64,000 nt of DNA from Rhodovulum imhoffii. GTDB lineage: Bacteria > Pseudomonadota > Alphaproteobacteria > Rhodobacterales > Rhodobacteraceae. The stretch lies in the NCBI RefSeq assembly GCF_003046545.1, contig NZ_QAAA01000004.1:1-64000 (forward strand), given 5' to 3'. Positions within the stretch are counted from its first letter, which is position 1. Every line of letters begins with the position of its first letter. Positions 40,209 through 59,470 of the stretch are shown here, in pieces. Below the pieces are notes generated by a model, which saw only the letters and a program-made list of their open reading frames with translations, had not been told where the DNA came from and did no database searches. A program made the position numbers and the translations under genes.

Positions 40209-40363
40209 CCCGCTGGGCTCATTGGATCAGGGAGGTTTGTCTTGGTCGTCTTTTCGGCGCAGGATGCGGGGCGGAAAGCGCGGCGTTTACCCTTGCTTAA
40301 CACAATGCCAGCCGTTAGCAGTTGCCCGAAAGTTGTTTCAGAAATTTGCAGGAGGCTGGGTGC

Positions 40364-41536
40364 ATGACCGGCAAACCATCCCTTGTTCCGCTGGCCATTC
40401 CCAACCTTCTTGGACGCGAAGCCGACTACCTGCAGGCTTGCATTTCCTCGACCTTCGTGTCCTCCGTCGGGCCTTTTGTCACCCGCTTTGAGGACAGCCT
40501 GGCAAGACTGAGCGGCGCGGAGGCGACAACCGTCGTCTGTAGCGGCACCGTTGCCTTGCAGATGGCCCTGACCGGGCTTGGAATCGGGGCGGGGGATCTG
40601 GTCATGATACCGTCCCTGACATTCATTGCCACGGCCAATGCCGTCAGCCACGCGGGGGCGGCACCCTGGCTGGTGGATTGCGATGCGGCCGGCTGGACAA
40701 TGGACCTTGATCGGTGCCGCCATCTTATCGAAACGGAAACCGAGCCGGCCCCCGGCGGGCGCCGCCACCGCACGAGCGGGCAGGTCCTGAAGGCCCTGAT
40801 GCCGGTGATGATCATGGGGGCGACACTGGATTTTGCCGCCACCGTCGCGCTGGCACGGGAATACGGCCTGAAGGTGGTCGTCGATGCCGCTGCCGCGATC
40901 GGCGCGGCAGGACCGGACGATACCCCGCTGGCCGCGACCGGGGTGGACGCGGTTTGCTATTCCTTCAACGGAAACAAGACCGTCACATGCGGCGGCGGCG
41001 GTGCGATCGCCGGGAACAAGGGGCTGATCGACCGCATCCGGCATCTTTGCTCCACCGCGCGGGTGGGACGGGATTACGATCACGATGAGATCGGTTACAA
41101 CTTCCGTATGACCAATGTTCAGGCGGCCCTGGGGGTTGCCCAACTGGAGCGGCTGGACGACTTCCTGGCTGCCAAGCTGCGAATTCGCAATGCCTACGCA
41201 GATTTTGCCGGGGGGTACCAAAGCCTGCATCCCTTCCCGGAGCCGCCGACGGGGCGCAGCGTCCACTGGTTTTCCGGGTTCTGGTACAGCGGACCGGACG
41301 CGACCTTGCCGTCGCGCTTTCGTGAGCACATGCAATCCGCCGCGATCGATTTGCGGCCGTTCTGGAAACCGATCCATCTTCAGGCCCCCTATCGCACTGC
41401 ACTGGCTTCGCCGATGCCGGTTGTCGACGATCTGTGGACGCGTATTTTTCCGCTTCCATGCTCGACCCATCTCACGGATGGGGATCTCGATCGGGTTCTG
41501 ACGGCCGCCAGAGAGTTCTGGAACGTTCATGACTGA
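40364..41536 (+). CDS. legC: DegT/DnrJ/EryC1-type aminotransferase (LegC-like)
   Basis: 390 residues. PLP-dependent sugar aminotransferase pattern: CSGTVALQMALTGLGIGAGD, VVVDAAAAIGAAG and the Schiff-base lysine K205 in YSFNGNKTVTCGGGG. It would aminate the 4-keto sugar made by the LegB-like dehydratase. ATG 40364 follows GGAGG by eight bases. It is the first gene of a 13-gene operon and overlaps the next gene by eight bases. Confidence 0.85.
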   Translation: MTGKPSLVPLAIPNLLGREADYLQACISSTFVSSVGPFVTRFEDSLARLSGAEATTVVCSGTVALQMALTGLGIGAGDLVMIPSLTFIATANAVSHAGAAPWLVDCDAAGWTMDLDRCRHLIETETEPAPGGRRHRTSGQVLKALMPVMIMGATLDFAATVALAREYGLKVVVDAAAAIGAAGPDDTPLAATGVDAVCYSFNGNKTVTCGGGGAIAGNKGLIDRIRHLCSTARVGRDYDHDEIGYNFRMTNVQAALGVAQLERLDDFLAAKLRIRNAYADFAGGYQSLHPFPEPPTGRSVHWFSGFWYSGPDATLPSRFREHMQSAAIDLRPFWKPIHLQAPYRTALASPMPVVDDLWTRIFPLPCSTHLTDGDLDRVLTAAREFWNVHD

Positions 41537-42740
41537 AGCGCGGCGTCATATTGCGGTAGTTACGGTCGGCCGGTCGGATTTCTCGATCCTGCGGCCATTA
41601 TGCGAGGCCCTGCATGACGCCCCCGATTTCGGTCTGACCCTGTGGGTGGGCGGGGCGCATTTCGACCCGGCCGGGGGCATGACGGTTGCGGATATAGACG
41701 CCAGCGGCCTGCCGGTCGGGGGGCGCGTCATTGCCGGATCGTTTGACCACGTGCCGCGTGGCACGACCCGCAACATGGGCGAGCAACTCCATGGGTTTGG
41801 GGAGGTCGCCGCGCAAGCCATCGTCGATGGCCGGCGGCCTGACCTGGTCCTGGTTCTGGGCGATCGGTTCGAAGCCTGTGCGGCGGGTATGGCAATGGTC
41901 CCCTTCGGGTTGCCCGTCGGTCATATCTCGGGTGGGTCGATCACGGAGGGGGCGATAGACGACATGTTTCGCCATGCCCTGACCAAGCTTGCGGCGGTTC
42001 ACTTCTGCGATGTGCCGGAATTTGCCCGCCGCATTCACCAGATGGGCGAGGAGCCCTGGCGGATATTTACCACCGGGGCGCTCGGCCTTGATGGAATTCG
42101 CCGGCAGCCGCCCAAGCCTCTGGACGAGATGTCGGAGCACTTCGGCATGCCCGGATTGCAGCGTGGATACGTCCTGTCGACGCTGCACCCTGAAACCATG
42201 GCCCCCGAAGTGACGCCGGTCATGGCACAGGGCATGGTTGCCGCTTTGGCGGAAAGCGGGATGCAGGTCGTCTACACCTATCCCAATGCCGACCCAGGCG
42301 CTGACGATATCATCGCCGCGATCGAGCGCTCCGTTGCCAGCCATCCCGGACAGTTCGCGGTTCGCAATTTCGGGTCCGGCTGGTTCTATTCGGCCATGGC
42401 GCATGCGGGTATGGTGGTTGGCAACTCGTCCAGCGGGATCTACGAGGCCGCCAGCTTCGGCTTGCCGGTTGTCGATATCGGGGACCGGCAGCGCGGGCGG
42501 CTTCGCGGTGAAAACGTCATTCACGCCCGGCCCGACCGTGACGGCATCCGCGCCGCGATGGCGCAGGCCACCGCGCTGGCGCCGACGCTGGACCCTGAAA
42601 ACAACATCTATGGCGACGGGCGTGCGTATCTTCGTGTGCTCGCGGTGCTGCGCGCGCTTGACTGGGGCAAGCTTTCGCAGCCCAAGCGTTTTTCGTGGTT
42701 TGATGAAAATTACAGTGGAGCTAGGGTGTCACTGCGATGA
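41529..42740 (+). CDS. legG: Hydrolysing UDP/GDP-sugar 2-epimerase (LegG/NeuC-like)
   Basis: 403 residues. The NeuC-type block HISGGSITEGAIDDMFRHAL has the usual layout, as do VTVGRSDFSILRPL at the start and VGNSSSGIYEAASFGLPVVD near the end. The enzyme would remove the nucleotide and invert C2, yielding the free 6-deoxy-diamino hexose for condensation by LegI. The stop overlaps the next start (ATGA). Confidence 0.88.
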   Translation: MTEARRHIAVVTVGRSDFSILRPLCEALHDAPDFGLTLWVGGAHFDPAGGMTVADIDASGLPVGGRVIAGSFDHVPRGTTRNMGEQLHGFGEVAAQAIVDGRRPDLVLVLGDRFEACAAGMAMVPFGLPVGHISGGSITEGAIDDMFRHALTKLAAVHFCDVPEFARRIHQMGEEPWRIFTTGALGLDGIRRQPPKPLDEMSEHFGMPGLQRGYVLSTLHPETMAPEVTPVMAQGMVAALAESGMQVVYTYPNADPGADDIIAAIERSVASHPGQFAVRNFGSGWFYSAMAHAGMVVGNSSSGIYEAASFGLPVVDIGDRQRGRLRGENVIHARPDRDGIRAAMAQATALAPTLDPENNIYGDGRAYLRVLAVLRALDWGKLSQPKRFSWFDENYSGARVSLR

Positions 42741-43804
42741 GACTCCAAAGCTATACCGGTGATGCCCTGGCCGCCGCGACCGCGCGGGCGAACAGCACCG
42801 TGCGCGAAGCGATGCGTATCATGAGCAATGCCGGTCTGCGGTCTTTGCCGGTCACCGACGATTGCGGAATGTTGGTCGGTCTGGCCGCGGATGGCGACAT
42901 TCGCCGGCATCTGTCCGGGGACGGAAACCTCGAAGACCCCATTTCCGTCGCCTGCAACCGCCGGCCGAAAACACTCGACCACGCGCTCGACCCTGTCGCA
43001 TTGCGATCCTACATGGCGAAGCAAGGCGTCGAAAGCTTGCCGCAGGTCGAGGAGGGCCGCCTTGTTGCTCTGCACGTTCTCTGGATTGTGGCGGATGCCG
43101 GTGCGACGACTGCCGTGATCATGGCCGGAGGGCTTGGAACGCGCCTTGCGCCCTTGACGGAACATTGCCCCAAGCCCCTGTTGCGCGTGGGCGACAGGCC
43201 GATGCTGACCCATATAATCGAGCACCTGCGCGACCAGGGCGTGCAGCGTTTCGTGCTTTCGGTGAATTACCTCAGCGGTATGATCATCGATCATTACGGG
43301 GATGGGCAATCCCTTGGTGTCGGCATAGATTATGTCCATGAAACGATGCGCATGGGGACAGGAGGCGCGCTGGGGCTGATTGCGCCGGATTTGTTGTCGG
43401 ATCCTTTTCTCGTGCTCAACGGCGATCTTCTGAACGACCTGGACGTGGAGACCCTTTGCCAGACCCACCGCAGCCGGGGTTGGGATGCCACCATGGTCGT
43501 GCGCCAGCATCACTACACCATTCCTTACGGTGTGGTACACAGCGGCCCGGAGGGGAATTTCATTTCCGCCGAGGAAAAGCCGACATTCGACTACCAGATC
43601 AATGCCGGTATGTACTTGTTGTCAAAGTCCGTGCTTCCGGTGGTGCCGAAGATGAAATTCTACGATCTCCCGACGCTGTTTTCCGATCTGTCCGCCCATG
43701 GCCTCAAGGGGGGAACACATGTTCATCCCGGCCGCTGGATCGACATCGGCAACATCGCGGATTACGAACGCGCACAAACCATTTTCGAAAGAATGCCCTC
43801 ATGA
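42737..43804 (+). CDS. ptmE: CBS-domain nucleotidyltransferase (PtmE-like)
   Basis: 355 residues. An N-terminal CBS pair (about 1-120) includes MSNAGLRSLPVTDDCGMLVG. A sugar-phosphate nucleotidyltransferase domain follows (AVIMAGGLGTRLAPLTEHC, PKPLL, then NGDLLNDLD). In Campylobacter legionaminate synthesis PtmE makes GDP-GlcNAc, which sets the GDP-linked route apart from the UDP-linked route. The domain order here matches PtmE, so a GDP-sugar pathway is inferred. Confidence 0.85.
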   Translation: MRLQSYTGDALAAATARANSTVREAMRIMSNAGLRSLPVTDDCGMLVGLAADGDIRRHLSGDGNLEDPISVACNRRPKTLDHALDPVALRSYMAKQGVESLPQVEEGRLVALHVLWIVADAGATTAVIMAGGLGTRLAPLTEHCPKPLLRVGDRPMLTHIIEHLRDQGVQRFVLSVNYLSGMIIDHYGDGQSLGVGIDYVHETMRMGTGGALGLIAPDLLSDPFLVLNGDLLNDLDVETLCQTHRSRGWDATMVVRQHHYTIPYGVVHSGPEGNFISAEEKPTFDYQINAGMYLLSKSVLPVVPKMKFYDLPTLFSDLSAHGLKGGTHVHPGRWIDIGNIADYERAQTIFERMPS

Positions 43805-45054
43805 CCGACCTGTCTTCCGCTCTGCGCCTGAATGCGCTGGATTGCCGCATCGTCGGCCGTGCAGAAAGCCTTTTTGCGGATGATCTGCGTGCCGAGGCCG
43901 CGGCACTCGAAGAACAGATCCGGGGCAGCCGTATCCTGGTGATCGGGGGGGCCGGGTCGATCGGGTCGCAGACACTCAAGACGATCCTGCGCTTTGCCCC
44001 GAAAACCGTACATGTCATCGATCATAACGAGAACGGTCTGGCGGAACTTGTCCGCGATCTGCGCTCCTCGCCCGAGCCGGTCCTGGCCGAGAACCTGCTT
44101 ACCCTGCCTTTCGATTATGCGGGGGCTCCCTTCCGCCTGTGGTTCGCCGCGCAGGAGGATTACGATTATGTTCTCAACTTTGCCGCGCTCAAGCATGTCC
44201 GGTCCGAGAAGGACCCGTATTCCATTCTCGCGATGCTGGATACCAACGTGCTCAAACTGGTGGGGTTGTCGCAACTGCTTGCCGACCGGGGGGGGCTGAA
44301 GCGCCTGTTTTGCGTTTCGACCGACAAGGCGGCGAACCCGTCATCGATGATGGGGGCAACCAAGCGCCTGATGGAGCATGCGCTGTTCTCGCCGGCTATC
44401 GGCTGGCGTCAGGGGCTGGCCATCACCTCGGCCCGGTTTGCGAACGTGGCGCTGTCGAACGGGTCGCTTCTTCAAAGCTGGCAGCATCGGCTGGCCGCAC
44501 GCCAGCCGATGGCCTGTCCCGAAGGGTGCCGCCGCTTCTTCGTGGCGCTGCCGGAATCCGGGCATCTATGCACGCTGGCGGGCCTGGGGGGGGAGGATGG
44601 CAACATCCACGTTCCGGCTCTGAACCCCGACGATCATTTGCAGCTTCTCGAGGATGTAGCGGTGTGGTTTCTCGAAGAGCACGGGCTGGTGCCCTTTTTT
44701 ACCCGAGATGAGGACGAGGCGCTGAGCAATGTCGATGCCCTGGCCGCGCAGGGAAAATGGCCGGTCCTTCTGACCCCTCTCGACACGGCCGGAGAGAAAC
44801 CCTACGAGGAGTTCGTGGCGAAGAACGAAACCTTGATGGAAACGAGGTTTTCCAAACTTCATCGCGTTCCGTATCTTGCGCCGGGCGATCCGGAGGCCTT
44901 TCCCACATTCCTTGCCCGGCTTCGGGAAATCGGCGGCGGGTCCGGGGCGCAGCGTCTGACGGTGGATCATCTGAAATCCCTGATTGCAGAGGTCGAGGAG
45001 GATTTCGCCCACAGCCATGTCGTCAGCACCAAGTCTCTGGATCAGAGGATGTAA
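43801..45054 (+). CDS. legB: Nucleotide-sugar 4,6-dehydratase (LegB-like)
   Basis: 417 residues of the extended-SDR CapD type. The Rossmann motif is VIGGAGSIGSQT (residues 47-58) and the catalytic block is CVSTDKAANPSSMMGATKR. The C-terminal region (HVVSTKSLDQRM) is extended. It would convert GDP-GlcNAc (by analogy with LegB) to the 4-keto-6-deoxy sugar. The start overlaps the ptmE stop (ATGA). Confidence 0.85.
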   Translation: MTDLSSALRLNALDCRIVGRAESLFADDLRAEAAALEEQIRGSRILVIGGAGSIGSQTLKTILRFAPKTVHVIDHNENGLAELVRDLRSSPEPVLAENLLTLPFDYAGAPFRLWFAAQEDYDYVLNFAALKHVRSEKDPYSILAMLDTNVLKLVGLSQLLADRGGLKRLFCVSTDKAANPSSMMGATKRLMEHALFSPAIGWRQGLAITSARFANVALSNGSLLQSWQHRLAARQPMACPEGCRRFFVALPESGHLCTLAGLGGEDGNIHVPALNPDDHLQLLEDVAVWFLEEHGLVPFFTRDEDEALSNVDALAAQGKWPVLLTPLDTAGEKPYEEFVAKNETLMETRFSKLHRVPYLAPGDPEAFPTFLARLREIGGGSGAQRLTVDHLKSLIAEVEEDFAHSHVVSTKSLDQRM

Positions 45055-45057
45055 GCC

Positions 45058-46068
45058 ATGACCTGTTTCATTATCGCCGAGATCGGTGTGAACCATAACG
45101 GATCGATGGACATGGCCCGCGAACTGATCGATGTGGCGGCAGAGGCGGGCGCGGATGCTGTCAAGTTCCAGACGTTCTTCGCCGATGAACTGGTCACGCC
45201 GAATGCCCGCAAGGCCGAGTATCAGGTTGCGAATACCGGCGACAGCGGCAGCCAGTACGCAATGCTCAAGGCGCTGGAACTGACCGAGGCACAATTCGCC
45301 GGACTGGCGGATCATTGTAAGGCGACCGGGGTCGAGTTTCTGTCCACGCCGTTTAGCGAGGCGGCATCGGATCTGCTGGCGCGCGTGGGTGTGCGTGCGT
45401 TCAAGATCAGTTCGGGCGACCTGACCCACCTGCCGATGCTGGCGCACATCGCCGCGAAGGGGTTGCCGATTCTTCTGTCGACCGGCATGGGGAACATGAG
45501 CGAGGTGGAAGCGGCGCTGGATACGATTGCGGCACACGGTGCCCCGGAGGTTTCGCTGCTGCATTGTGTGTCGAATTACCCGGCAGACGCCGCGGATTGC
45601 AATCTTGCCGCGATGGACACGCTCGCGCGCGCGTTCGGTGTTCCGGTGGGCTGGTCCGACCACACCGAGGGGGCAGAGATTTCTTTTGCAGCCGTTGCGC
45701 GTGGCGCCAGGCTGATTGAAAAGCACATCACGCTGGACAAGACCTTGCCGGGGCCGGACCATCTCGCCTCGATGGAAGCTGTGGAATTTGGCGCGTTTGT
45801 CCAAGGAATCCGTACGATCGAGGCGGCAATCGGAGATGGCCACAAACGTCCGACTGCGGCCGAACTTAAAACCGCCGAAGTTGCGCGCCGGTCGATTGTC
45901 GTCGTGCGGGATCTGCCGGAAGGCCATGTTCTGCGTGCCGAAGATCTTCGTGTCATGCGCCCGGGAACCGGGTTGAAACCCGCCTTGCTCGGTATGGTGA
46001 CGGGGCTGCCGCTGGCCTGCGATATCGCCGCCTTCACCCCCTTGACCGAGGCGCATCTTCATGGGTGA
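45058..46068 (+). CDS. legI: Nonulosonate synthase (NeuB/LegI-like)
   Basis: 336 residues. The NeuB barrel motifs are present: IIAEIGVNHNGSMDMARELI, GADAVKFQTF, EFLSTPFS and KISSGDLTHLP. A C-terminal SAF (antifreeze-like) domain occupies about 280-336 (VRDLPEGHVLRAEDLRVMRP). It condenses the hexose with phosphoenolpyruvate to a nine-carbon acid. By sequence alone it could equally make Neu5Ac; the surrounding genes favour legionaminic acid. Confidence 0.88.
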   Translation: MTCFIIAEIGVNHNGSMDMARELIDVAAEAGADAVKFQTFFADELVTPNARKAEYQVANTGDSGSQYAMLKALELTEAQFAGLADHCKATGVEFLSTPFSEAASDLLARVGVRAFKISSGDLTHLPMLAHIAAKGLPILLSTGMGNMSEVEAALDTIAAHGAPEVSLLHCVSNYPADAADCNLAAMDTLARAFGVPVGWSDHTEGAEISFAAVARGARLIEKHITLDKTLPGPDHLASMEAVEFGAFVQGIRTIEAAIGDGHKRPTAAELKTAEVARRSIVVVRDLPEGHVLRAEDLRVMRPGTGLKPALLGMVTGLPLACDIAAFTPLTEAHLHG

Positions 46069-46711
46069 CCGCGTACGCCCTGTCGCGGTTCTCGGGGCGG
46101 GCGGCCATGCCCGTGTGGTGGCCGAGGCCCTGGTGTTGTCCGGGCGGCGGCTTGCAGGTTACGTTGCGCCGGTCGCAGAGGGCCGGACCCATCCTCTGCT
46201 GGGTTCATGGCTGGGGACGGACGATATCATTTCGGACCTTGTCGGTGCCGGGCATGATCTGGCGCTGGGGTTGGGTTTTGTCGACAGCGCGGGCGCGAAA
46301 CTGCGGTCCGCCATCCTGGCGGCGCTTGACCCGGCGCGGCTTTCGGTTGTTTGCCATCCGGCCGCATCGGTTTCAGCCTTTGCGCATCTTGCGCCGGGGA
46401 CCGTGGTATGTGCCGGGGCCGTGGTGTCGGTCGGCGCGGCTTTGGACGAGGGAGTTTTGATCAACAGCGGGGCGGTCGTTGATCATGATTGCCAGGTGGG
46501 GGCCAATACCCATGTTGCCATAGGGGCGCATCTGGCGGGGTCTGTGCATGTGGGCCGCGACGTTCTGGTCGGCGCGGGGGCTGTCGTTCGGCAGGGAATC
46601 CGTATCGGAGACAGCGCGGTGATCGGTGCGGGAAGCGTGGTCATACGGGATGTGCCTGCCGGCGTGACGGTTTGCGGAATTCCGGCGCGTGTGCCGAAAT
46701 CCGGGGTCTGA
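46061..46711 (+). CDS. legH: NeuD/LegH-like sugar acyltransferase
   Basis: 216 residues. The N-terminal Rossmann-like region (VAVLGAGGHARVVAEAL) is followed by hexapeptide repeats of a left-handed beta helix (INSGAVVDHDCQVGANTHVA). It matches the NeuD/PglD/LegH family, which N-acetylates the 4-amino sugar. The overlap with legI is eight bases. Confidence 0.85.
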   Translation: MGDRVRPVAVLGAGGHARVVAEALVLSGRRLAGYVAPVAEGRTHPLLGSWLGTDDIISDLVGAGHDLALGLGFVDSAGAKLRSAILAALDPARLSVVCHPAASVSAFAHLAPGTVVCAGAVVSVGAALDEGVLINSGAVVDHDCQVGANTHVAIGAHLAGSVHVGRDVLVGAGAVVRQGIRIGDSAVIGAGSVVIRDVPAGVTVCGIPARVPKSGV

Positions 46712-46715
46712 GGCG

Positions 46716-47732
46716 ATGGGGCGCAAGTTTCTCATTGTCGGGCTTGGGTCGATCGGACGGCGGCACATGTCGAATCTCGCGGCGGCATATCCCGAGGCGT
46801 CGTTTACAGTCTTGCGCCACCGGCCCTCTTCCGATCGTCTATGCGATCGGCTTGGTGCACATATCGTTACCGACCGGGAAGAAGCGATTGCCGGGGATCA
46901 TGATCTTGCTGTGATTTCCTCACCCTCGGCCAACCATATCGACGTTTTGCCGGGCCTGATCGCCCGGGGAACGAATCTTTTGGTCGAAAAGCCGATCGTG
47001 ACCAATACCCATGACTGCGACCTGATCCTCGACCTTCTCGACAGCGCGCCGCCTGCGGTGCGCGTGTCGGGGTTCAATTTCCGTTACCTGCCATCCTTGC
47101 AACTGATCCGCGACATGATCCGGGAAGGTGCGCTGGGGACCGTGGTGCGGGCGGCCTTTGCCGCGGGGCAATGGCTGGGGGACTGGCGCAAGGGGACCGA
47201 TTACCGGGCGTCCTACTCTGCCGATGCCGCTCGCGGGGGAGGGGTTGAGCTGGATCTTGTCCATGAGATCGACGTGGCCCGGTGGTTCTTTGGCGACCTG
47301 GATCTGCGGTTCGCGCAGGCGGGGCGGCTGTCGGCGCTGGGGCTGAAGTCGAACGATGTGTCGGTAATGGTGATGTCCCCCCCTCGGCAGGCAGGGCCGA
47401 TCGTCCAGGTCACGCTGGATTATGTGGCCCGCCAGCGGCTGCGCCATTACGAGATCGTCGGGGACAAGGCCGCCATCCTGTGGGATATTGGCGGCAAGGT
47501 CGAACTGGTGACACCCCAGGGCCGGCAAGTTCTGGCCGAACAGCCCGGCGGCTTCGATGTGGGCCAGACCTATATCGACATGATTTCCCATATCGGGGCC
47601 GCGTGCGAAACCGGCGGGTGGCCGGCACCGCTGCAGAACCTTCAGGACGGGATTGCCAGTACGCGGCTGGCGCTTGCCGCGCGTGAGGCCGGCACACCGC
47701 AGGGCACAGGAGAAGGAACCGAAAGCCCATGA
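46716..47732 (+). CDS. Gfo/Idh/MocA-family oxidoreductase
   Basis: 338 residues. The NAD(P)-binding motif is VGLGSIGRRHMSNL, and the active-site EKP motif is in LLVEKPIV; the C-terminal half includes GGGVELDLVHEIDVARWFFG. ATG 46716 follows the legH stop by four bases. Such enzymes oxidise or reduce sugars; the substrate is probably a nonulosonate or hexose intermediate. It has no direct counterpart in the minimal legionaminate pathway. Confidence 0.8.
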   Translation: MGRKFLIVGLGSIGRRHMSNLAAAYPEASFTVLRHRPSSDRLCDRLGAHIVTDREEAIAGDHDLAVISSPSANHIDVLPGLIARGTNLLVEKPIVTNTHDCDLILDLLDSAPPAVRVSGFNFRYLPSLQLIRDMIREGALGTVVRAAFAAGQWLGDWRKGTDYRASYSADAARGGGVELDLVHEIDVARWFFGDLDLRFAQAGRLSALGLKSNDVSVMVMSPPRQAGPIVQVTLDYVARQRLRHYEIVGDKAAILWDIGGKVELVTPQGRQVLAEQPGGFDVGQTYIDMISHIGAACETGGWPAPLQNLQDGIASTRLALAAREAGTPQGTGEGTESP

Positions 47733-48433
47733 CCACGATTTGTACGATTTGTGCCCGAGGCGGCTCTGTTGGGGTCCCGCGCAAGAACATCCGCCCATTG
47801 ATGGGCAAGCCCTTGATCGTTCATACAATAGAACAAGCCCTCTCCTGTGGGTCGATTGACGATGTATATGTCTCGACCGACGACACGGAGATTGCCGGGA
47901 TTGCCCGTTCTGCCGGTGCGAAAGTCCCCTGTTTGCGCCCCGCGGAGCTGGCGACATCGAAGGCGGCCAAGATCCCGGTGATCGTGCATCTGGTGGAAAA
48001 GGTCGAAAGTCTTGGTGTATCTGTCACGCGGATCATCGATCTGGACCCGACCTCGCCGTTGCGGCTGGTCGAAGACATCGAGAATGCCGCGGCGCTGCTG
48101 GATGATCGGACCGATTGCGTCATCACTGCCTATCCATCCGACAAGAACCCCTATTTCAACATGGTCGAAACGAAGCCTGACGGGAATATCCGGCTGGTCA
48201 AGGCGTTGCCGGAAGGCGTCACGTCCCGGCAGGTGGCCCCGAAAGTGTTTTCGATGAACGCGTCGATTTATGTCTGGCACCGGGCGTCCCTGTCGAAGGG
48301 GCTGTGGGAGGGCCGGACGCGTCTGTACGAGATGCCGCGTGAGCGGTCGATCGATATCGACAGCGAAATCGATTTCCGGTTGGTCGAAATGTTCATGCAA
48401 GACCGGTTGGCGCAGAAGGAGCAGAAGAAATGA
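47729..48433 (+). CDS. legF: CMP-nonulosonate cytidylyltransferase (NeuA/LegF-like)
   Basis: 234 residues. The NeuA-type N-terminus is CTICARGGSVGVPRKNIRPL, with the CTP-binding arginine and lysine, and later YVSTDDTEIAGIA. It activates the nine-carbon acid with CTP to CMP-sugar for glycosyltransferases. The start overlaps the preceding stop (ATGA). Confidence 0.88.
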   Translation: MTTICTICARGGSVGVPRKNIRPLMGKPLIVHTIEQALSCGSIDDVYVSTDDTEIAGIARSAGAKVPCLRPAELATSKAAKIPVIVHLVEKVESLGVSVTRIIDLDPTSPLRLVEDIENAAALLDDRTDCVITAYPSDKNPYFNMVETKPDGNIRLVKALPEGVTSRQVAPKVFSMNASIYVWHRASLSKGLWEGRTRLYEMPRERSIDIDSEIDFRLVEMFMQDRLAQKEQKK

Positions 48434-49209
48434 CCGTTTCAGGAACTGCCGTTCTGACCGGAGGCGGGGGAATTCTGGGCAGGGCAATGGTGGAACGGCT
48501 GAGTGCCGATGGCTGGGAAGTTGCAGTGGTCGACCGCAACGAAGACCTTGCCCACAGCGCCGCTGCGAAGGGACAAGGCCCGGGCCGCGCTGTGGCCTAC
48601 GGTTGCGACATCACCGACCGGGCCGCGCTGCGCGATTTGCACGCGCGGATTCGCGACGATCTGGGGCCGGTGGACGCATTGCTGTGCAATGCCGCGGCAA
48701 AGAGCGACAATTTCTTTGCCCCCTTCGAGTCTTTCCCCCTGGAGGATTGGAACGAGGTGATGGGCGTGAACCTGACTGCCCCGATGCTGTGCGCGCAGGA
48801 GTTCGGGGCACCGATGGCGCAGCGGGGGAAGGGGGCGATCGTCAACACCCTGTCGATCTATGGCATCGTCGCCCCCGATCAGCGCATCTACGAAGGGTCG
48901 CTTTACGAAGGGCGCGCGATAAACACGCCTGCGATCTACTCCGCCTCGAAGGCGGGCCTTTGGGGGCTGACGAAATATCTGGCCAGCTACTGGGGCGCGC
49001 AGGGTGTGCGGGTGAACGCGGTCACGCCGGGCGGTATTTTCAGTGGGCAAAACGATACGTTCGTTGGCAAATACAGTGCGCGGACGATGATGGGTCGTAT
49101 GGGGGAACCCCATGAAATTGCGGATGCGGTTGCCTTTCTCGTTTCCGACCGCGCCAGCTATGTCACCGGCCAGAACCTCATCGTTGACGGAGGGTTGAGC
49201 GCATGGTAG
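48430..49209 (+). CDS. Short-chain dehydrogenase (PtmA-like)
   Basis: 259 residues. It has a glycine-rich LTGGGGILGRAM opening and the catalytic triad S142, Y170 and K174 (YSASK). The stretch AIYSASKAGLWGLTKYLASYWG is typical of SDRs found in flagellin-glycan loci (PtmA). Its substrate in this pathway is not established. The start overlaps the legF stop. Confidence 0.82.
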   Translation: MTVSGTAVLTGGGGILGRAMVERLSADGWEVAVVDRNEDLAHSAAAKGQGPGRAVAYGCDITDRAALRDLHARIRDDLGPVDALLCNAAAKSDNFFAPFESFPLEDWNEVMGVNLTAPMLCAQEFGAPMAQRGKGAIVNTLSIYGIVAPDQRIYEGSLYEGRAINTPAIYSASKAGLWGLTKYLASYWGAQGVRVNAVTPGGIFSGQNDTFVGKYSARTMMGRMGEPHEIADAVAFLVSDRASYVTGQNLIVDGGLSAW

Positions 49210-49256
49210 CTGCCTGATGCCGGTCACACTGATTTTCATTGAAAAAGGGATTTCCC

Positions 49257-49523
49257 ATGAGCGATGCCAGCAACATCGAACAATCGATCCGTGCCCTGTT
49301 CGCCGAAGTATATGGCACGCAGAATGCTGGCGCACCGGCGCCCGAACTCAAGGATGAGACAGTGCTCCTGGAGACCGGGCTGGATTCTCTTGGCTTTGCC
49401 ATCCTGGTGACCCGTCTGGAAGAAGAACTGGACTATGACCCCTTCAGCCTGTCGACCGAGGCGTATTATCCCCGCACCTTCCGCGAATTTGTGGATTTCT
49501 ACGTCGCGAACCAACCTGCCTGA
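49257..49523 (+). CDS. Acyl carrier protein
   Basis: 88 residues, acidic. The phosphopantetheine attachment serine is S44 in ETGLDSLGFAIL. The ATG at 49257 follows AAAAAGGG. It is an additional ACP of the type that serves a dedicated pathway, distinct from the fatty acid synthesis AcpP by its setting next to an AMP-forming ligase, not by sequence proof. It starts the acyl-activation module of the operon. Confidence 0.85.
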   Translation: MSDASNIEQSIRALFAEVYGTQNAGAPAPELKDETVLLETGLDSLGFAILVTRLEEELDYDPFSLSTEAYYPRTFREFVDFYVANQPA

Positions 49524-49537
49524 ACGAAGAGGCCGCC

Positions 49538-50875
49538 ATGACCCTGCTTGATCACATCGGCGGCATGCGCCCCGACAATGTGGCGCTGGTCGGGGGGTGG
49601 GGACGTCAAGACTATGGAGATCTGGCCGCGCGGGCCGGGGCGCTGCGCGAGCGGCTTTCCCCGACCGGGTTGCGGGTTTTTCTGAATCTTTCCGATCTTT
49701 CGGAGGCGCTTGTCGCATTGGCGGCGCTGGATGGTATTGTCGATGCGGTTGTTCTGTCGTCGCCATCGCTTGATGAGGCTACGCTTTGTACGCTTGCGGG
49801 CGTGTCCGCGGATGCAATTATCACGGATCGCACGGATTTGCATGGAAGCGATTTGCCGGTTTTGCGCGATCCGGCGGAGCTTGCGGGGCTGCGGTCTGCG
49901 CCGGAGACATGCTCAACCCGTTGGATCATGACCACCTCCGGAACCACCGGGCGCCCCAAGCTCGTTGAACACTCCCTGGAGAGCTTGTCCCGTACCACCC
50001 GCAAAGACCGGGCCCGCGGAACCGGGCAGGTTTGGGGGCTGCTTTACGATTACACCCGTTTTGCCGGGCTTCAGGTTGTGCTGCAAAGCCTTCTTTCGGG
50101 GGCGAGGCTGGTCGTGCCGGAAGCCGATAGCCCGCTTGATGACCGTTTGGCGTTGCTTTCTGCCGAGGGGTGCACCCATCTGAGCGCGACGCCAACGCTG
50201 TGGCGCAAGATCCTGATGTCGCGGGCTGTCGACGGTCTGGCGCTGCGGCAGGTGACGCTGGGGGGGGAAATTGCCGATGATGCGGTGCTTCGGGCCCTTG
50301 CCCGATCGTTTCCCGAGGCACGTATCAGCCATATCTTCGCATCGACCGAGGCAGGCGTGGGGTTTTCCGTTACCGATGGAAAGGCCGGTTTTCCCGAGAG
50401 CTACCTGACCGACCCGCCGCAGGGGATCAGCCTGAAGGTCGAGGACGGGCGGCTTTTCGTCCACAATGACCGCGTCGGACCGGCTTATGTCGGCGGCGGT
50501 GACATTGCCTGTGACGGGTGGGTCGACACCGGCGACCTGGTGGCGCGCCGGGGCGGCCGGATCGTATTTCTGGGGCGCGGAAGCGGCGTGATCAATGTTG
50601 GCGGCGACAAGGTTGTCCCTGAGGAGGTCGAGACCGTTCTCCTGACGCATCCTGAGGTTCACATGGCGCGCGTCTATGCGAAGACGAACCCGATCATGGG
50701 GGCACTCGTCGCTGCCGATGTGCACCCCGAACCGGGCAGCGACCCAACACAACTGCGCGCGTCTTTGCGGGATTGGTGTGCAGCCCGGCTGGACCGGCAC
50801 AAGGTCCCCGCGGTCTTTCGCATGGTCGATCAGTTCCGCACCAATGCCGCTGGAAAGATCGAAAGGTCCAACTGA
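49538..50875 (+). CDS. AMP-forming acyl-activating ligase
   Basis: 445 residues, shorter than a usual acyl-CoA ligase (500-550). ANL-superfamily motifs: TSGTTGRPK (residues 133-141), WVDTGD, and the C-terminal catalytic lysine K440 in NAAGKIE. It probably loads an acyl group (or amino acid) onto the neighbouring ACP. The substrate cannot be predicted from the sequence by eye. Confidence 0.8.
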   Translation: MTLLDHIGGMRPDNVALVGGWGRQDYGDLAARAGALRERLSPTGLRVFLNLSDLSEALVALAALDGIVDAVVLSSPSLDEATLCTLAGVSADAIITDRTDLHGSDLPVLRDPAELAGLRSAPETCSTRWIMTTSGTTGRPKLVEHSLESLSRTTRKDRARGTGQVWGLLYDYTRFAGLQVVLQSLLSGARLVVPEADSPLDDRLALLSAEGCTHLSATPTLWRKILMSRAVDGLALRQVTLGGEIADDAVLRALARSFPEARISHIFASTEAGVGFSVTDGKAGFPESYLTDPPQGISLKVEDGRLFVHNDRVGPAYVGGGDIACDGWVDTGDLVARRGGRIVFLGRGSGVINVGGDKVVPEEVETVLLTHPEVHMARVYAKTNPIMGALVAADVHPEPGSDPTQLRASLRDWCAARLDRHKVPAVFRMVDQFRTNAAGKIERSN

Positions 50876-51598
50876 ATGCGAAATATCCTTGTCACAGGGG
50901 CCACCCGTGGCCTTGGCCTTGCCATCACCGGGCGCCTTCTGAAAGAGCCGGACACCCACCTTGTCTGCCTTGGCCGCACCCCGTCGCCGGAGTTCGAGGC
51001 CCTGGTTGCCGCCAATGAGGCGCGTGTTTTTTTTCGACGGCATGACCTGTCGGACCTCGATGGGATTCCCGCGCTGGTAAGGGGGATCACGCGTGAGGTT
51101 GGTCCGCTCTACGGGCTGGTCAACAATGCCGCGCTGGGGGCGGACGGGGTGCTTGCGACACAGCACGCTTCGGAGATTGCCAGGGCGATCCGCGTGAATC
51201 TGGAAGCCCCGATCCTGATGTCCAAATATGCCTGCCGCTCGATGTTGACCCAGGGTACGGGGCGGATCATCAACATTTCGTCGATCATCGCCCGAACAGG
51301 ATATAACGGGCTGGCCGTTTACGGGGCAACGAAAGCCGGGATCGAAGGGTTCACCCGGTCGCTCTCACGGGAACTGGGCCGGGCGGGAATAACCGTGAAC
51401 TGTGTGGCGCCGGGCTATATGGAAACGGACATGACAGCGGGCCTGCAGGGGGAAAAACTGAACTCGATCCGGCGTCGCGCACCTTTGGGCCTTCCCCGCC
51501 CTGCCGATGTGGTTGGGGCGGTGGCCTATCTGATGTCCGACGAAGCCGCGATGGTCACCGGGTCCGTGGTGACGGTCGACGGCGGCAGCACGGCGTAA
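50876..51598 (+). CDS. FabG-like short-chain dehydrogenase
   Basis: 240 residues. NAD(P) motif TGATRGLGLAI, then VNNAALGADG; catalytic residues S135/S136 region (INISSI), Y149 and K153 (YGATK). The C-terminal MSDEAAMVTGSVVTVDGG is FabG-like. Its position directly after the ligase suggests reduction of a 3-keto acyl-ACP, as in FabG; that is inference. Confidence 0.85.
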   Translation: MRNILVTGATRGLGLAITGRLLKEPDTHLVCLGRTPSPEFEALVAANEARVFFRRHDLSDLDGIPALVRGITREVGPLYGLVNNAALGADGVLATQHASEIARAIRVNLEAPILMSKYACRSMLTQGTGRIINISSIIARTGYNGLAVYGATKAGIEGFTRSLSRELGRAGITVNCVAPGYMETDMTAGLQGEKLNSIRRRAPLGLPRPADVVGAVAYLMSDEAAMVTGSVVTVDGGSTA

Positions 51599-51602
51599 CG
51601 CG

Positions 51603-52661
51603 ATGGGTCGGATTCGCACACGCCTGGCTGAAGAACACGACCGGGATTCGCTGATCGCGTTCGTCCGCGATTATTGGTCTGCGCGTCATGTTTTCGTGGA
51701 TCAGCCAGAGGTTTTCGACTGGCAATATGCCCAGCGCGACGGTCGTATCAACATGATTCTTGCTGAAGAGGTCGAGGATTCCGGCACGGCAAGGGTTCTG
51801 GGGGTTCTGGGCTTCATCCCTATGGGCCGGTTCGACCCGGCGTTGGGGGATGATGATCTTTTGCTGGCCTTGTGGAAGGTTCGTGACGACATTGCCCCGC
51901 CGGGTTTGGGATTGCGTCTTCTGAAGTCCGTCCAATCCTTGCTGAAACCGCGTCTGATCGGGGCGATCGGCATCTCGGACATGGTTGGCCCAATCTATCG
52001 GGCGCTGGGCTACACGCTGGACAAACTGCACCACGCCGCACTGTTCGATCCGGAGCTTGCCACTTTCCGAATTGCGCAGGGTGTGCCCGGAGCGCGCCCG
52101 GCATTCGGTCCGGCGGGGGGGTATCGCTTACGCCCGTTCCTCCCGGCGGACGCAGGGGCCATAGCCACCTTGGCGGGCGCGCAGATCCCGGCCAAATCGA
52201 CGGATTATATCCGGGAAAGATATATCGACCATCCTTGGTATGACTATACGCTTCGGGTCGTCGAGCGGGGGAATATCCCTGAGGCCCTTGTCGTCTGGCG
52301 TGCGGTCGATGCGGAAGGCGCGCGACTGTTGCGCATTGTGGACATGATCGGAGCACCGGACTGGTTGGCGTGTGCCGGCCCCTTGCTGACCCGCGAACTC
52401 CGCGCTGTTGGAGCGGAATATATCGACCTGATGCAAACCGGGGTTGATAAGGACATTCTGGATCGGGGTGGGTGGATGTCGCCCGACGATTACGATGGGT
52501 TGATCCTGCCGAATTATTTTGCGCCTTTTGAGGCCCGAAATACCCAAATTGCCTTGTCCTGGAAGATGTTTGGCGATTCAGGGGACAAACCCTTGCGTCT
52601 TTTCCGCGCCGATTCCGATCAGGATCGCCCGAACCAGCCGATGCAATACCGCAGCGTGTAA
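51603..52661 (+). CDS. GNAT-like acyltransferase (tentative)
   Basis: 352 residues. It looks like two tandem GNAT-type halves: residues 1-150 (RDYWSARHVFVDQPEVFDWQ, later VLGVLGFIPMG and GLGLRLLKSVQ) and 175-350 (YRLRPFLPADAGAIATLAG). No clear acetyl-CoA pyrophosphate loop is evident by eye, so the assignment is tentative. Last gene of the nonulosonate operon; a role in transferring the ACP-bound group to the sugar is inferred from its place. Confidence 0.55.
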   Translation: MGRIRTRLAEEHDRDSLIAFVRDYWSARHVFVDQPEVFDWQYAQRDGRINMILAEEVEDSGTARVLGVLGFIPMGRFDPALGDDDLLLALWKVRDDIAPPGLGLRLLKSVQSLLKPRLIGAIGISDMVGPIYRALGYTLDKLHHAALFDPELATFRIAQGVPGARPAFGPAGGYRLRPFLPADAGAIATLAGAQIPAKSTDYIRERYIDHPWYDYTLRVVERGNIPEALVVWRAVDAEGARLLRIVDMIGAPDWLACAGPLLTRELRAVGAEYIDLMQTGVDKDILDRGGWMSPDDYDGLILPNYFAPFEARNTQIALSWKMFGDSGDKPLRLFRADSDQDRPNQPMQYRSV

Positions 52662-55609: not shown

Positions 55610-55712
55610 CTTCACTTCCATTAAGGCTGGCCGGGTGCCGGCGGCACAATTCGGCGTCTTCTATTATTTTTCATTTTTGCCCGTATCAGGGGCAGGACAA
55701 CGGGTTCGGTTT

Positions 55713-56654
55713 TCAGCGGGGAAAATCGTTGGTATCGAAACGCGGCAACAATAACGGGTCGTTTCGGGATAAATCGGCGGTTGCAACTTCCGTTGTCAGA
55801 CCCAGCGTGCATTTCCGGCTGCGCAGGACGTCCAGAAGCTCTTCGTTCCAGCCGCCGAACGGATAACACATGACCCAGTGATCCTCGATCGGGGCACCGA
55901 TTTCACGCAGGAAATCCAGCGAGGTATCGATTTCCGTCTCCTGCACCGCGCGTGGAATCCGGTTGAGCCAATAGTGAGACGCACCATGGGAGCCGAATGC
56001 CATCCCGCAGGACTGCATCAGCCGTGCCTGTTGTGTGCTGATATAAAGCTCGCTTGCGAAAGCCGGTTCATCAGCGGTCACGAATTGTGCGAACAAGTCC
56101 TGTGCTACCCGGTTGCGCATGTCTTCGGGCAGAACTGTTTGCAACATGCGCTTGATATAGATCGTTTCGGCATCGTCGAACCGGTTGGGGTGTGCCCAGT
56201 CTGCCCGGTAGGCCGCGACCGGCTGCAACCCCAGTGCGGGGTCGGCCGCTTCGATCGCGGCATCGATTCGTTCCGAAACCTGCGCGGGGTTTTCAAGGGT
56301 TGCGGCAAGAATGAAATGAACCCGGTTCACGTCCAGCAAAACGCCGTCGCGGATCGGGGCGACAGGCGGATAAAAACACCCCTGCAAGCCGCGTTCATAC
56401 AGTTCCGGAAAGACAAGGTTGTAATGCTCGGCATATCCGTCGTCGAATGTCAGCAGCGCCGCGTCCGGGGGCAATGCGTGACCCTCGCGTACCGCAGCCA
56501 CCACATCTTCGACCCGTACGATCCGGTAATGCGATTGCAGGTAATCCAGTTGTCGCCGGAACCCGGCGAAATCGAGGCCGCGAATGCCGGGATAACGTGT
56601 GCGGGCAAAGTCACGAACGTAATGATACATGACTATGGTCAAGCTGCTTTGCAT
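55713..56654 (-). CDS. Polysaccharide deacetylase (NodB-type)
   Basis: 313 residues. Carbohydrate esterase 4 motifs are visible: LTFDDGYAEHY (motif 1), GSHGASH (motif 2) and MCYPFGGW (motif 3). There is no clear signal peptide, so it may act on a cytoplasmic or lipid-linked glycan. ATG 56654 lies two bases after the upstream glycosyltransferase stop. Confidence 0.85.
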   Translation of the reverse strand: MQSSLTIVMYHYVRDFARTRYPGIRGLDFAGFRRQLDYLQSHYRIVRVEDVVAAVREGHALPPDAALLTFDDGYAEHYNLVFPELYERGLQGCFYPPVAPIRDGVLLDVNRVHFILAATLENPAQVSERIDAAIEAADPALGLQPVAAYRADWAHPNRFDDAETIYIKRMLQTVLPEDMRNRVAQDLFAQFVTADEPAFASELYISTQQARLMQSCGMAFGSHGASHYWLNRIPRAVQETEIDTSLDFLREIGAPIEDHWVMCYPFGGWNEELLDVLRSRKCTLGLTTEVATADLSRNDPLLLPRFDTNDFPR

Positions 56655-56656
56655 TT

Positions 56657-57910
56657 TCAGCCCCCTGGCTCCGACTCGCGTTCGGACACTAGGCGCGATG
56701 GGGCGGTATGTCCATCGTCGGAGACCACCCTGGAACGTCGGGCCAGAAGGCGTTCGCTGGCCTTTATCATGCTGTCGTAGCGACGGTTGCTGAAGCCGAA
56801 GATGCTGGAGGTGAGGTCGCCGCGATGTCCGGCCAGAAACGGCAATGTCGTCACCACGCGCAGACCGGGCATCGTGCCCAGCCAGGCGTCGATGCTGTTC
56901 GTCCCGATCCCGCCGCGGTCCGGTGCCCAATCCGCAAGACGCTCCAGCGCCCGGCGGTTGTAGATGTTGAAGACCATCCCGATTGTCTGGTCCAGGTGTA
57001 CGAAGGTATGGCCCTCCCGAAGGACGGCGCGCGGGGTTTTCCGGATTCCGGCCAGATTGGTGACCAGCCCGGAAAATATGTCCCAGTCGGTCTGACGCAG
57101 GTAGGCGCGGACGGCGCGAAGGGTCTCCGCGTAGTCCGGGGCAAGCGCCACATCGTCTTCGCAAACGGTGAGCGGGACAACCCCTTGGGCAAGCGCCGCG
57201 CGGGCCATGGTCGCATAGCTGAAAGCCGCCCCGTGCCAGCCGGGAGAGAGACGGATACCGTCGAAGAGGGTGAACGATGTCCCGTGGCGATCCGTAAAGG
57301 CGCGCCGCCGCGCCGGTGTTTCCGGAAGGCTGAGGCACAGGGCCCTCTGGGGGGAAAGATTGCGTAACGCGGGAAATACCTCCGGGGTCAATCCCTTTGC
57401 GCAGATGCCTCCGGCCGCGACCAGCCAGCGGGTCAGCCCCGCTGCCAGCATGTCGTGCGATTCGCCTGATTCGCCGGGCGATGGCAGAACGAAGACCTGG
57501 CCTGGCGGGACGCCGGCACCGACCAGGGCGTCGAATCCGGCGCCGGGGGTCAGGATGGCGGTGGCGTCTTGCGCTGCCCGACGTGCGAGCGATGGCGCAA
57601 GGGTCCCGGCAATCTCGGGGGATGTCAGCAAAAGGCTGCCGCTTGTCGGGGGGGGCAGGTGGCTGGACGCGGAGATGACGTAAAGGTCGTGTGCCGCCGG
57701 GGTTTGACCTTCGCCATGCAAGACACCCAGAGCCGCCAGCGCCTGTTTTACATCTTGCAGGGCATCGCCGCTTGTCCCCCGGACCCGGATCGGCGTCTGC
57801 ACGGGAGCCAGAGCGACCGCACCCCGACGGGATCGGCGATACCGCATGCGGGCCCAGACCCCGGCCATGCCTTCGCGCCGCAACGCGCGCCATGCCCGCG
57901 CCGTTTTCAA
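56657..57910 (-). CDS. Glycosyltransferase family 25-like protein
   Basis: 417 residues from a TTG at 57910 that overlaps the stop of the upstream gene (TTGA). An ATG at 57868 is a fallback start. The GT25 pattern is in the second half: LSLPETPARRRAFTDRH, the acidic catalytic stretch VCEDDVALAPDYAETL and VFNIYNRRALERL. The first ~170 residues are of unknown type. It belongs to the same minus-strand operon as the GT52-like gene. Confidence 0.75.
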   Translation of the reverse strand: MKTARAWRALRREGMAGVWARMRYRRSRRGAVALAPVQTPIRVRGTSGDALQDVKQALAALGVLHGEGQTPAAHDLYVISASSHLPPPTSGSLLLTSPEIAGTLAPSLARRAAQDATAILTPGAGFDALVGAGVPPGQVFVLPSPGESGESHDMLAAGLTRWLVAAGGICAKGLTPEVFPALRNLSPQRALCLSLPETPARRRAFTDRHGTSFTLFDGIRLSPGWHGAAFSYATMARAALAQGVVPLTVCEDDVALAPDYAETLRAVRAYLRQTDWDIFSGLVTNLAGIRKTPRAVLREGHTFVHLDQTIGMVFNIYNRRALERLADWAPDRGGIGTNSIDAWLGTMPGLRVVTTLPFLAGHRGDLTSSIFGFSNRRYDSMIKASERLLARRSRVVSDDGHTAPSRLVSERESEPGG

Positions 57911-58965: not shown

Positions 58966-59470
58966 CTGTTCATGCCTTTCCTCCGAGTCCGTTCGGATGC
59001 CCGGACCGGAGACTTCCTGCATGACGTATACGGGCCGTCCTGTCGGCTGCATCGGGTCTTTCGTGGTCGCAATGGTCTTCGGCAGACTCTTAACGTCTGC
59101 TCCCGGTCGATCAAGCTCCCTTGGCAAGGTTTTCCGAAAGAACGTCCCGACAGGTGGGATTGCGCGGTCGCTCCGGGCTGGTGCAGCGGGGGGCGCTCCA
59201 CGGTCTCCCCGCCCGCCGCTCTTTACGGGTCGCGGGGCATCGCCGCGAAATCCTGTGCGATTCAGGGCAGGGGGAATCTTGTGATGGACGGCTTGCGCCC
59301 GGATTGACCGGCCCCCGGAGGTGGCGCCGGCCGGGAGAGGCAGCCCTGTCTGCCCGCCCCCCGGGCGGTCGGATGGGTCCGGAGGGGCGCATGGGAAGTG
59401 CGTCGGGAACGATCCGCGATATGGCCGACCCGGCTTTTTTGCCGTTTGGAACGGTCTGCTCCTGTCGGCT
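58966..59470. other. Region between the GT52-like gene and the acyl-CoA synthetase gene
   Basis: 505 bases upstream of a minus-strand operon. It includes a possible in-frame extension of the GT52-like gene (to 59127) and presumably its promoter. I see no further gene, repeat or convincing terminator. Confidence 0.45.

Follow-up and report, generated by a model that had tools for sequence, protein, structure and literature searches.

What are four genes for acyl-group chemistry doing at the end of an operon for a nonulosonate (NulO)? They occupy positions 49257-52661 of a 64,000-nucleotide stretch of the Rhodovulum imhoffii genome (assembly GCF_003046545.1, contig NZ_QAAA01000004.1, positions 1 to 64,000; hereafter the window) and encode an acyl carrier protein (ACP), an adenylate-forming ligase, a short-chain dehydrogenase/reductase (SDR) and a GNAT-like protein. 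Much of the diversity among bacterial nonulosonates and O-antigens comes from their N-acyl groups, and to our knowledge the origin of the less common N-acyl groups on surface sugars is seldom known. The original prediction was that the four genes form a dedicated system for N-acylation of the sugar. Our analysis favors, with some reserve, a module that makes an unusual acyl group and joins it by an N-acyl linkage to the nonulosonate of this operon. It also divides the set: judging by gene neighborhoods, the GNAT gene is the part linked to NulO, and the ACP, ligase and SDR genes (the trio) are a portable cassette.

The four open reading frames (ORFs) lie head to tail on the forward strand, at the coordinates first reported for them (Table 1). 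The gaps between the ACP, ligase, SDR and GNAT genes are 14, 0 and 4 bases, and the ACP gene starts 47 bases after the last NulO operon gene. By its gene content the operon, which starts at about 40322 and ends with the four-gene set, is a NulO operon of legionaminate type. The NeuB, NeuC and NeuD models passed their curated cut-offs, and the other operon genes gave weaker matches. Together with Pfam matches, these models upheld the placement of ACP, AMP-ligase and reductase genes after a nonulosonate operon. A scan of genome contigs with the ligase alignment yielded at least 550 confirmed relatives, of which the best 80 loci were retained: 32 from Bradyrhizobium/Xanthobacteraceae and 48 from other taxa (loci from this and other searches are labeled L0xx or L1xx). 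Because relatives of both the ACP and the SDR shared a locus with the ligase at 45 of these 48 loci and at 31 of the 32, and because DS[LMI] was present in 83/83 related ACP ORFs, the four are not chance ORFs. The TSGTxGxPK motif and C-terminal GK of the ligase were invariant (11 sequences), and the window SDR has the tetrad residues N108, S135-136, Y149 and K153. Relatives of the GNAT protein (E ≤ 1e-3) were found in 0 of 15 other genomes of the genus and 0 of 9 others of the family, which makes the four-gene set an accessory trait.

The last protein matches no Pfam family and no NCBIfam family, and a viral contig scan and a PDB sequence search with it gave nothing useful. Its AlphaFold2 model (mean pLDDT 86.1, pTM 0.86) matches tandem GNATs over the length of the chain, and the fold matches include a glucosamine N-acetyltransferase. 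Two alignments of 7 sequences each (A1 and A4) showed no variation at residues G101 and G103 of the glycine-rich donor-binding loop, in what we take to be the GNAT donor-loop motif, xxGxG. On the basis of the model we are confident that the protein has a tandem GNAT fold, in line with its earlier description as GNAT-like.

Genomes encoding this protein nearly always encode NeuB. Excluding the window genome, NeuB was present in 17 of 18 genomes with a GNAT match at E ≤ 1e-10, compared to 172 of 385 in the class. These comprised 6 of 7 genomes from the class, 6 of 6 from ligase loci and 5 of 5 from a phylum sample, and the single miss was a genome (G279) that is 63% complete. A binomial probability for 17/18 against 45% is about 1e-5, a value that ignores kinship and uses a background from the class only. 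Dropped from this count were two weak class matches (G188 at 1.2e-4, NeuB-positive; G171 at 9.2e-4, NeuB-negative), L050, whose contig is identical to that of G342, and the plasmid locus L013. Seven of the 80 ligase loci had the GNAT gene, all in NeuB-positive genomes. In Vibrio penaeicida (L056), the ligase and SDR genes have a LegC-like gene on one side and a LegG-like gene on the other, and this run of genes ends with those for the ACP and GNAT. Judged by this co-occurrence, the tandem GNAT is the NulO-linked part of the set. At the dropped locus L013 (14261-15969), an SDR gene is followed by a GNAT-family gene on a mobilizable Subdoligranulum plasmid; this is a Clostridia relative with 28% identity.

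The trio is found in many phyla. Its usual order among the retained loci is ACP-ligase-SDR, and its hosts include several proteobacterial classes, Myxococcota, Planctomycetota, Verrucomicrobiota, Chlorobiota, Balneolota, Ignavibacteriota, Campylobacterota, Thermodesulfobacteriota and Actinomycetota. LegI relatives were present at 9 of the 48 loci outside Bradyrhizobium/Xanthobacteraceae. Among 50 ligase-bearing genomes tested for NeuB (the 48 others plus 2 of the 32 Bradyrhizobium/Xanthobacteraceae), 35 were positive and 15 were negative. In the class sample, NeuB was present in 8 of 11 ligase-positive genomes versus 172 of 385 overall, with at most four ligase candidates scored per genome, such that copies may be missed.

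What adjoins the trio changes from locus to locus. The tandem GNAT adjoins it in the window, L043, L045, L048, L050, L052 and L108, and is next to the ACP in L056. Many Rhodobacteraceae and sphingomonads have a NeuD-like protein of ~150-200 amino acids (aa) in its place, the L059 copy being a hexapeptide protein. In the pseudaminate operon of L064 the neighbor is a 261-aa protein slightly below the Pfam GNAT cut-off, with a NeuB-family gene on one side and a PseH-like gene on the other (73 bits against a cut-off of 93 for the latter); members of its cluster are also found in L072, L080 and L090. In Aliivibrio (L118), an LpxA-like hexapeptide protein lies beside the trio within an rmlB-rmlA-fdtA-aminotransferase operon for a dTDP-amino-hexose, and Idiomarina (L102) has a hexapeptide protein and an aminotransferase at matching positions. 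Sulfuricurvum (L073) has a GNAT-domain protein beside the trio, followed by LegG- and PtmE-like genes. In L037-L040 the neighbor is a protein of a ketoacyl-ACP synthase III (KAS III) cluster, with Pfam run on two of them. In Bradyrhizobium the trio is mostly beside a separate AMP ligase of 600 aa, and the loci hold no NulO gene.

The hypothesis that all four genes are dedicated to NulO was rejected, as the trio occurs in NeuB-free genomes and in a dTDP-sugar operon. Given its presence in dTDP-amino-hexose and pseudaminate operons, in Bradyrhizobium and in the 15 genomes without NeuB, the trio is not NulO-specific. The proposed tie to the sugar therefore holds for the GNAT (17/18 genomes and 7/7 ligase loci) and fails for the trio: three of the four genes occur without nonulosonate genes. 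By its neighborhoods, the trio is a mobile, portable cassette that would serve other acyltransferases elsewhere, often beside an amino-sugar acyltransferase.

Other neighbors of the trio recurred. The 600-aa AMP ligase was found in L033, L065, L075 and most Bradyrhizobium loci, with a DUF3095-family protein in most and no NulO gene. A family of ~280-345 aa adjoins the trio in L032 (11392-12228), L034, L035, L036, L057, L070 and L071; it may be another partner enzyme, and the L032 and L036 copies scanned had no Pfam match. Loci L037-L040 have relatives of the ligase and SDR together with KAS III and an ACP-like protein; they also share an alpha/beta hydrolase cluster (4/4), and a NeuB relative is present in 3/4. 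In L014 (15672-19224), phosphonate-type genes adjoin NeuB and an SDR-ACP-ligase-SDR-GNAT set: one encodes a fusion of PEP mutase with a cytidylyltransferase-like domain, and the others are for a TPP enzyme and an Fe-ADH.

Which acyl group would the trio make? The best PDB match of the window SDR was MupS from mupirocin biosynthesis (4yxf, E 1.1e-45; next 5.1e-39). FabG-type NCBIfam models scored highest on it, yet below their cut-offs. One of the 23 records in a plasmid search with the ligase was from Pseudoalteromonas: pTML1 of strain SANK 73390, the product of which is thiomarinol (PMC10098928; the papers cited here are drawn on in excerpt). Plasmid pTML1 carries a ligase, an SDR and an ACP in one row, in an order differing from the window. 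We take these to be TmlQ, TmlS and TacpD, an assignment of our own, as the names are not in the record. Over 236 residues, TmlS shares 40.7% identity with the window SDR; for TmlQ and the window ligase the identity is 27.6% over 442 residues (1.5e-41; both blastp).

In an IQ-TREE phylogeny, for which SDR ORFs longer than 270 aa were trimmed to their last 260 residues, TmlS fell inside a clade of 42 cassette SDRs (support 100/99). A branch with support 98/93 separated these 42, TmlS and MupS (44 rows) from 13 other SDRs, an outgroup drawn mostly from the window's own genome, such that closer outsiders are possible. Eighteen SDR columns were cassette-specific: their residue is conserved in no fewer than 36 of the 42 cassette SDRs and is present in no more than 2 of 10 other SDRs from the window's genome. 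Eight of these columns (L13, G80, G91, T95, I101, K117, G168 and R200) are common to MupS and TmlS. The sister group of 43 cassette ligases was TmlQ plus the rhizobial ligase of L140 (98/95), with MupQ outside this tree's sequence set. TmlQ and TmlS make a 4-hydroxybutanoyl unit from succinyl-CoA. MupQ, MupS and MacpD convert malonyl-CoA to 3-hydroxypropionate, and thiomarinol is primed with 4-hydroxybutanoyl (PMC10098928). No KAS III or ketosynthase domain was found among the scanned operon proteins from 40322 to 52661, and a reductase without a ketosynthase would be explained by an SDR in the MupS/TmlS clade and a ligase sister to TmlQ. By family, the cassette product is most likely an omega-hydroxyacyl-ACP. 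Reduction of the loaded acid by the SDR, as first proposed, thereby gains a specific precedent in MupQ/MupS/MacpD and thiomarinol, with omega-hydroxyacyl groups favored over 3-hydroxybutyryl. The TmlQ-related ligase of L140 (4916-9312) is encoded on a conjugative plasmid of Rhizobium, where an SDR and a halogenase of the chloramphenicol type, CmlS, adjoin it.

The system may also extend beyond 52661. A CE4-type deacetylase encoded about 3 kb downstream had a relative within ~3.5 kb of the GNAT gene at 12 of 20 GNAT loci, namely the window and 11 of 19 others (L015-L018, L020, L045, L048, L108 and L147-L149). The window copy is 67% identical to a Pannonibacter copy adjoining GNAT and shows similarity, far below the cut-off, to the N-terminal part of PgaB. 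Its metal-binding residues D71, D72, H223 and H227, which we assign presumptively to the CE4 motif, were invariant in 12/12 relatives; a strict TFDDG was present in 10/12 and SHxxxH in 6/12, and the window copy has both. A strongly hydrophobic N-terminus was seen in none of the 12 (highest 19-residue mean 1.03), so the enzyme probably acts inside the cell. The 5-N-acetyl group of NulO derives from GlcNAc, and a different acyl group at position 5 would thus require deacetylation. From its conserved neighborhood, the deacetylase probably belongs to the acylation system, so that the four genes originally delimited appear to be part of it rather than its full extent. A 726-aa ORF (55713-57893) was rejected as a single protein because homology begins at about residue 409-418; a start at residue 414 gives 55716-56654.

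These observations suggest a sequence of steps for the module. The ligase would adenylate either a short acid or, in the manner of MupQ/TmlQ, a dicarboxylyl-CoA at its free carboxylate, and load the unit onto the operon's own ACP, as the ligase family suggests. The SDR would then reduce the ACP-bound unit to a hydroxyacyl-ACP, most likely omega-hydroxy, with 4-hydroxybutyryl from succinyl-CoA or 3-hydroxypropionyl from malonyl-CoA as candidate units. The tandem GNAT, as its predicted fold allows, would pass this unit on from the ACP, acylating an amine of the legionaminate-type sugar. Beforehand, the deacetylase would strip the N-acetyl group, resulting in acyl exchange. That the module as a whole acts in this way on the operon's nonulosonate is, in our view, somewhat probable. 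A broader proposal is put forward only tentatively: a mobile cassette of MupQ/MupS/MacpD type may generally supply surface amino sugars with omega-hydroxyacyl groups, working with acyltransferases of a different fold for each sugar, and with acyl exchange by an intracellular CE4 enzyme plus the tandem GNAT, which would put 4-hydroxybutyryl or 3-hydroxypropionyl in place of N-acetyl, in NulO makers. If so, the origin of the 4-hydroxybutyramido sugars known from marine and fish-associated bacteria would be explained.

Yersinia ruckeri offers a natural comparison. Strain ATCC 29473 (L108) has ACP, ligase, SDR, GNAT and deacetylase genes in one row, and no NeuB relative within this 21-kb locus. 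Among five Y. ruckeri strains, BI323_13885, 13890, 13895 and 13905, annotated as a phosphopantetheine protein, an AMP-dependent synthetase, a 3-oxoacyl-ACP reductase and a polysaccharide deacetylase, were exclusive to serotype O1, as was a legionaminate cluster (PMC5552943). BI323_13900, absent from that O1-exclusive list, is probably the GNAT. The O1 polysaccharide repeat includes a nonulosonic acid (PMC10174560). The row BI323_13885-13905 matches the ACP, ligase, SDR, GNAT and deacetylase genes of L108. We presume the O1 acid to be a 7-acetamido-5-(4-hydroxybutyramido) nonulosonate, a structure that the literature searched did not give; such an acid would agree with the model both in its acyl group and in where that group sits. 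For the cassette in fdtA-type operons, a fitting product is the 3,6-dideoxy-3-(4-hydroxybutyramido)-D-galactose recorded from Pseudoalteromonas (PMC3210612).

A number of results weigh against this interpretation. The literature searched on the Y. ruckeri O1 sugar gave no 4-hydroxybutyramido, 3-hydroxybutyryl is on record for other amino sugars and a Flexibacter maritimus nonulosonate (PMC3210612), and Acinetobacter Leg5Ac7R carries a 3-hydroxybutyryl group (PMC9676051). Nine of the 18 cassette-specific SDR columns are in neither MupS nor TmlS, and one is in MupS alone. With a ligase only ~28% identical to TmlQ, and TmlQ itself pairing with the ligase of the CmlS cluster L140, the loaded acid need not be a dicarboxylyl-CoA. 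The window ACP matched MacpD (6tg5) only at E 0.52 and had no blastp match to TacpD (88 aa versus 111); its sequence lends no support either way on a relation to Mup/Tml. ORFs of the KAS III cluster adjoin the ligase and SDR in L037-L040, and others of it are in L106 and in L043, there ~4 kb before the trio with GNAT, so beta-ketoacyl groups may be substrates of the SDR as well. The deacetylase was not seen at 8 of 20 GNAT loci (L013, L019, L043, L050, L052, L056, L150 and L151), although L052, L056 and L150 end early at a contig or locus end and L043 has only a 23% relative; in the window it is on the opposite strand, with another gene between it and the operon. Finally, 6 of 10 genomes tested carry the GNAT gene without the ligase (E ≤ 1e-40), implying that the GNAT family can use other donors.

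Several of these points suit an alternative in which the ligase loads acetoacetate and the SDR acts as a beta-ketoacyl reductase, giving 3-hydroxybutyryl-ACP, comparable to VioR for modified viosamine. We regard this as unlikely, albeit worth serious consideration. Beyond the Acinetobacter and Flexibacter sugars, the KAS III-cluster ORFs near some trios and the top scores of FabG-type models on the SDR, acp, vioS and vioR of Pseudomonas syringae have been assigned to a 3-hydroxy-1-oxobutyl group (PMC3927599). Yet the operon has no ketosynthase among its scanned proteins, the SDR groups with MupS/TmlS and not with the genome's own FabG-like SDRs, and the Acinetobacter 3-hydroxybutanoyl modules are named without an ACP in PMC9676051, where the term 'acyl carrier' does not appear. 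Alternatively, the ligase and ACP might load a ready-made acid for the GNAT while the SDR, along with the PtmA-like SDR also in the operon, works on the sugar. The fold does not reveal the SDR's substrate, but the SDR accompanies the ACP and ligase in operons of unrelated sugars and in Bradyrhizobium loci without a NulO gene (31 of 32 Bradyrhizobium/Xanthobacteraceae loci), leaving this alternative improbable.

To a still smaller degree, we would credit the idea that the tandem GNAT is a second sugar N-acetyltransferase that draws on acetyl-CoA, with the trio serving another product. Genomes with GNAT and no ligase, and the glucosamine N-acetyltransferase among the fold matches, fit this idea; the GNAT gene immediately following the trio at six loci and in the window, or beside the ACP in V. 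penaeicida, does not. It is highly improbable that the four genes belong to a separate lipid or secondary-metabolite module lying beside the NulO operon by chance. The Bradyrhizobium loci with the trio and no NulO gene, and the ligase genomes without NeuB, speak for such independence, but it is at odds with the tight spacing after the NulO genes, the intermixing with Leg genes in V. penaeicida and the presence of NeuB in all seven genomes of ligase loci with GNAT.

How does the proposed acylation module compare to described systems? The four-gene set, or a Mup/Tml comparison for sugars, was not found in the literature searched, which was open-licence only. The original statement that no described pathway has this set therefore stands, within that literature, for the four genes together and has to be narrowed for ACP, ligase and reductase, which are listed in Aeromonas, enterobacteria and Y. 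ruckeri O1. Like the window, MupQ/MupS/MacpD and TmlQ/TmlS/TacpD encode an adenylating enzyme, an SDR and a private ACP together, with the SDR of the same clade and TmlQ in the sister group of the cassette ligases. However, their units prime a polyketide or fatty-acid chain, whereas the window set adjoins a predicted sugar N-acyltransferase; gene order differs and the ACPs are not detectably related by blastp. The viosamine island of P. syringae (vioA, vioB, vioR, vioS, vioM, vioT and acp) likewise pairs a private ACP and reductase with an acyltransferase for the hydroxyacyl group that decorates an amino sugar in a surface glycan, but it has a KAS III (VioS) in place of the ligase and acts on dTDP-viosamine rather than a nonulosonate, a likeness drawn from description only (PMC3927599).

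Flagellin glycosylation islands of Aeromonas group II and enterobacteria also hold ACP, ligase and reductase with glycan genes (PMC7874193, PMC4875605). They differ in carrying LuxE/LuxC, their genes are named 3-oxoacyl-ACP reductase, AMP synthetase or CaiC, and they too are likened to the window by description only. CaiC and FabG were each reported in 71 enterobacterial strains (PMC4875605), and a liposugar component was suggested by the authors. The excerpts of PMC7874193, PMC4875605 and PMC5552943 give no acylation mechanism for these genes, and the terms 'acyl carrier', 'oxoacyl', 'lux' and 'ACP' are absent from the text of a Plesiomonas paper (PMC4481668). The Acinetobacter modules lgaABCHIFG and psaABCGHF (7-N-3-hydroxybutanoyl) replace acetyl with hydroxyacyl on a nonulosonate, as proposed here, and differ from the window in being named without an ACP (PMC9676051). 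If our interpretation is correct, an antibiotic starter-unit cassette would be a widespread tool for surface sugars, joining two fields. The cassette would provide a genome marker for hydroxyacylated sugars, and a function would be proposed for a family that Pfam and NCBIfam do not model. If the trios are also homologous, it would bear on the product of the Aeromonas and enterobacterial islands, previously guessed to be a liposugar.

Table 1. Features of the nonulosonate operon, the four-gene set and the downstream deacetylase in the window.
Feature	Coordinates	Strand	Evidence and remarks
LegC-like aminotransferase	40322..41536	+	PF01041 1e-73; TIGR04181 333 bits, below cut-off 420
LegG/NeuC-type UDP-GlcNAc 2-epimerase	41529..42740	+	TIGR03568 (NeuC_NnaA) 323 bits, above cut-off 236
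PtmE-like CBS + sugar nucleotidyltransferase	42737..43804	+	PF00483 1.2e-33, PF00571 8e-9
LegB-like 4,6-dehydratase family protein	43801..45054	+	PF02719 7e-34; NCBIfam models below cut-offs; LegB name inferred
NulO synthase (LegI/NeuB)	45058..46068	+	TIGR03569 (NeuB_NnaB) 423 bits, above cut-off 400
NeuD-type left-handed beta-helix sugar acetyltransferase	46061..46711	+	TIGR03570 172 bits, above cut-off 161
Gfo/Idh/MocA oxidoreductase	46689..47732	+	PF01408 3.5e-13
CMP-NulO cytidylyltransferase (LegF/PseF-like)	47729..48433	+	PF02348 9e-21; TIGR03584 (PseF) 115 bits, below cut-off
Second SDR (PtmA-like), distinct from cassette reductase	48430..49209	+	PF13561 4e-53; PRK09186 163 bits, below cut-off
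Acyl carrier protein, 88 aa	49257..49523	+	ATG at 49257; PF00550 (PP-binding) 3.1e-6; DSL serine is residue 44
Adenylate-forming ligase, 445 aa, TmlQ-like	49538..50875	+	PF00501 (AMP-binding) 1.5e-26, PF13193 (AMP-binding_C) 1.9e-11
SDR reductase, 240 aa, MupS/TmlS clade	50876..51598	+	Pfam adh_short_C2 4.7e-49; start abuts ligase stop
Tandem-GNAT acyltransferase (predicted), 352 aa	51603..52661	+	Conserved C-terminal DSDQDRP; AlphaFold2 model
CE4-type polysaccharide deacetylase, 313 aa, no signal peptide; putative de-N-acetylase of the NulO	55716..56654	-	PF01522 2.6e-13

Within the operon, the name PtmE for the CBS-containing nucleotidyltransferase and the link between PRK09186 and PtmA are our assumptions. 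Downstream, a 463-aa ORF (56660-58048, reverse strand) had no Pfam match, and blastp did not match it to the 563/564-aa proteins found near GNAT in L148 (7750-9438) and L015 (7924-9615); these two are 47% identical to each other, and the L148 copy had no Pfam match. The deacetylase gene is flanked by two other reverse-strand genes, one at 52973-55621 with a weak match to surface-carbohydrate biosynthesis and one at 57910-59127 that is polysialyltransferase-like (PF07388 1.4e-7). Judging from these neighbors, the NulO may be destined for a capsule-like polymer.

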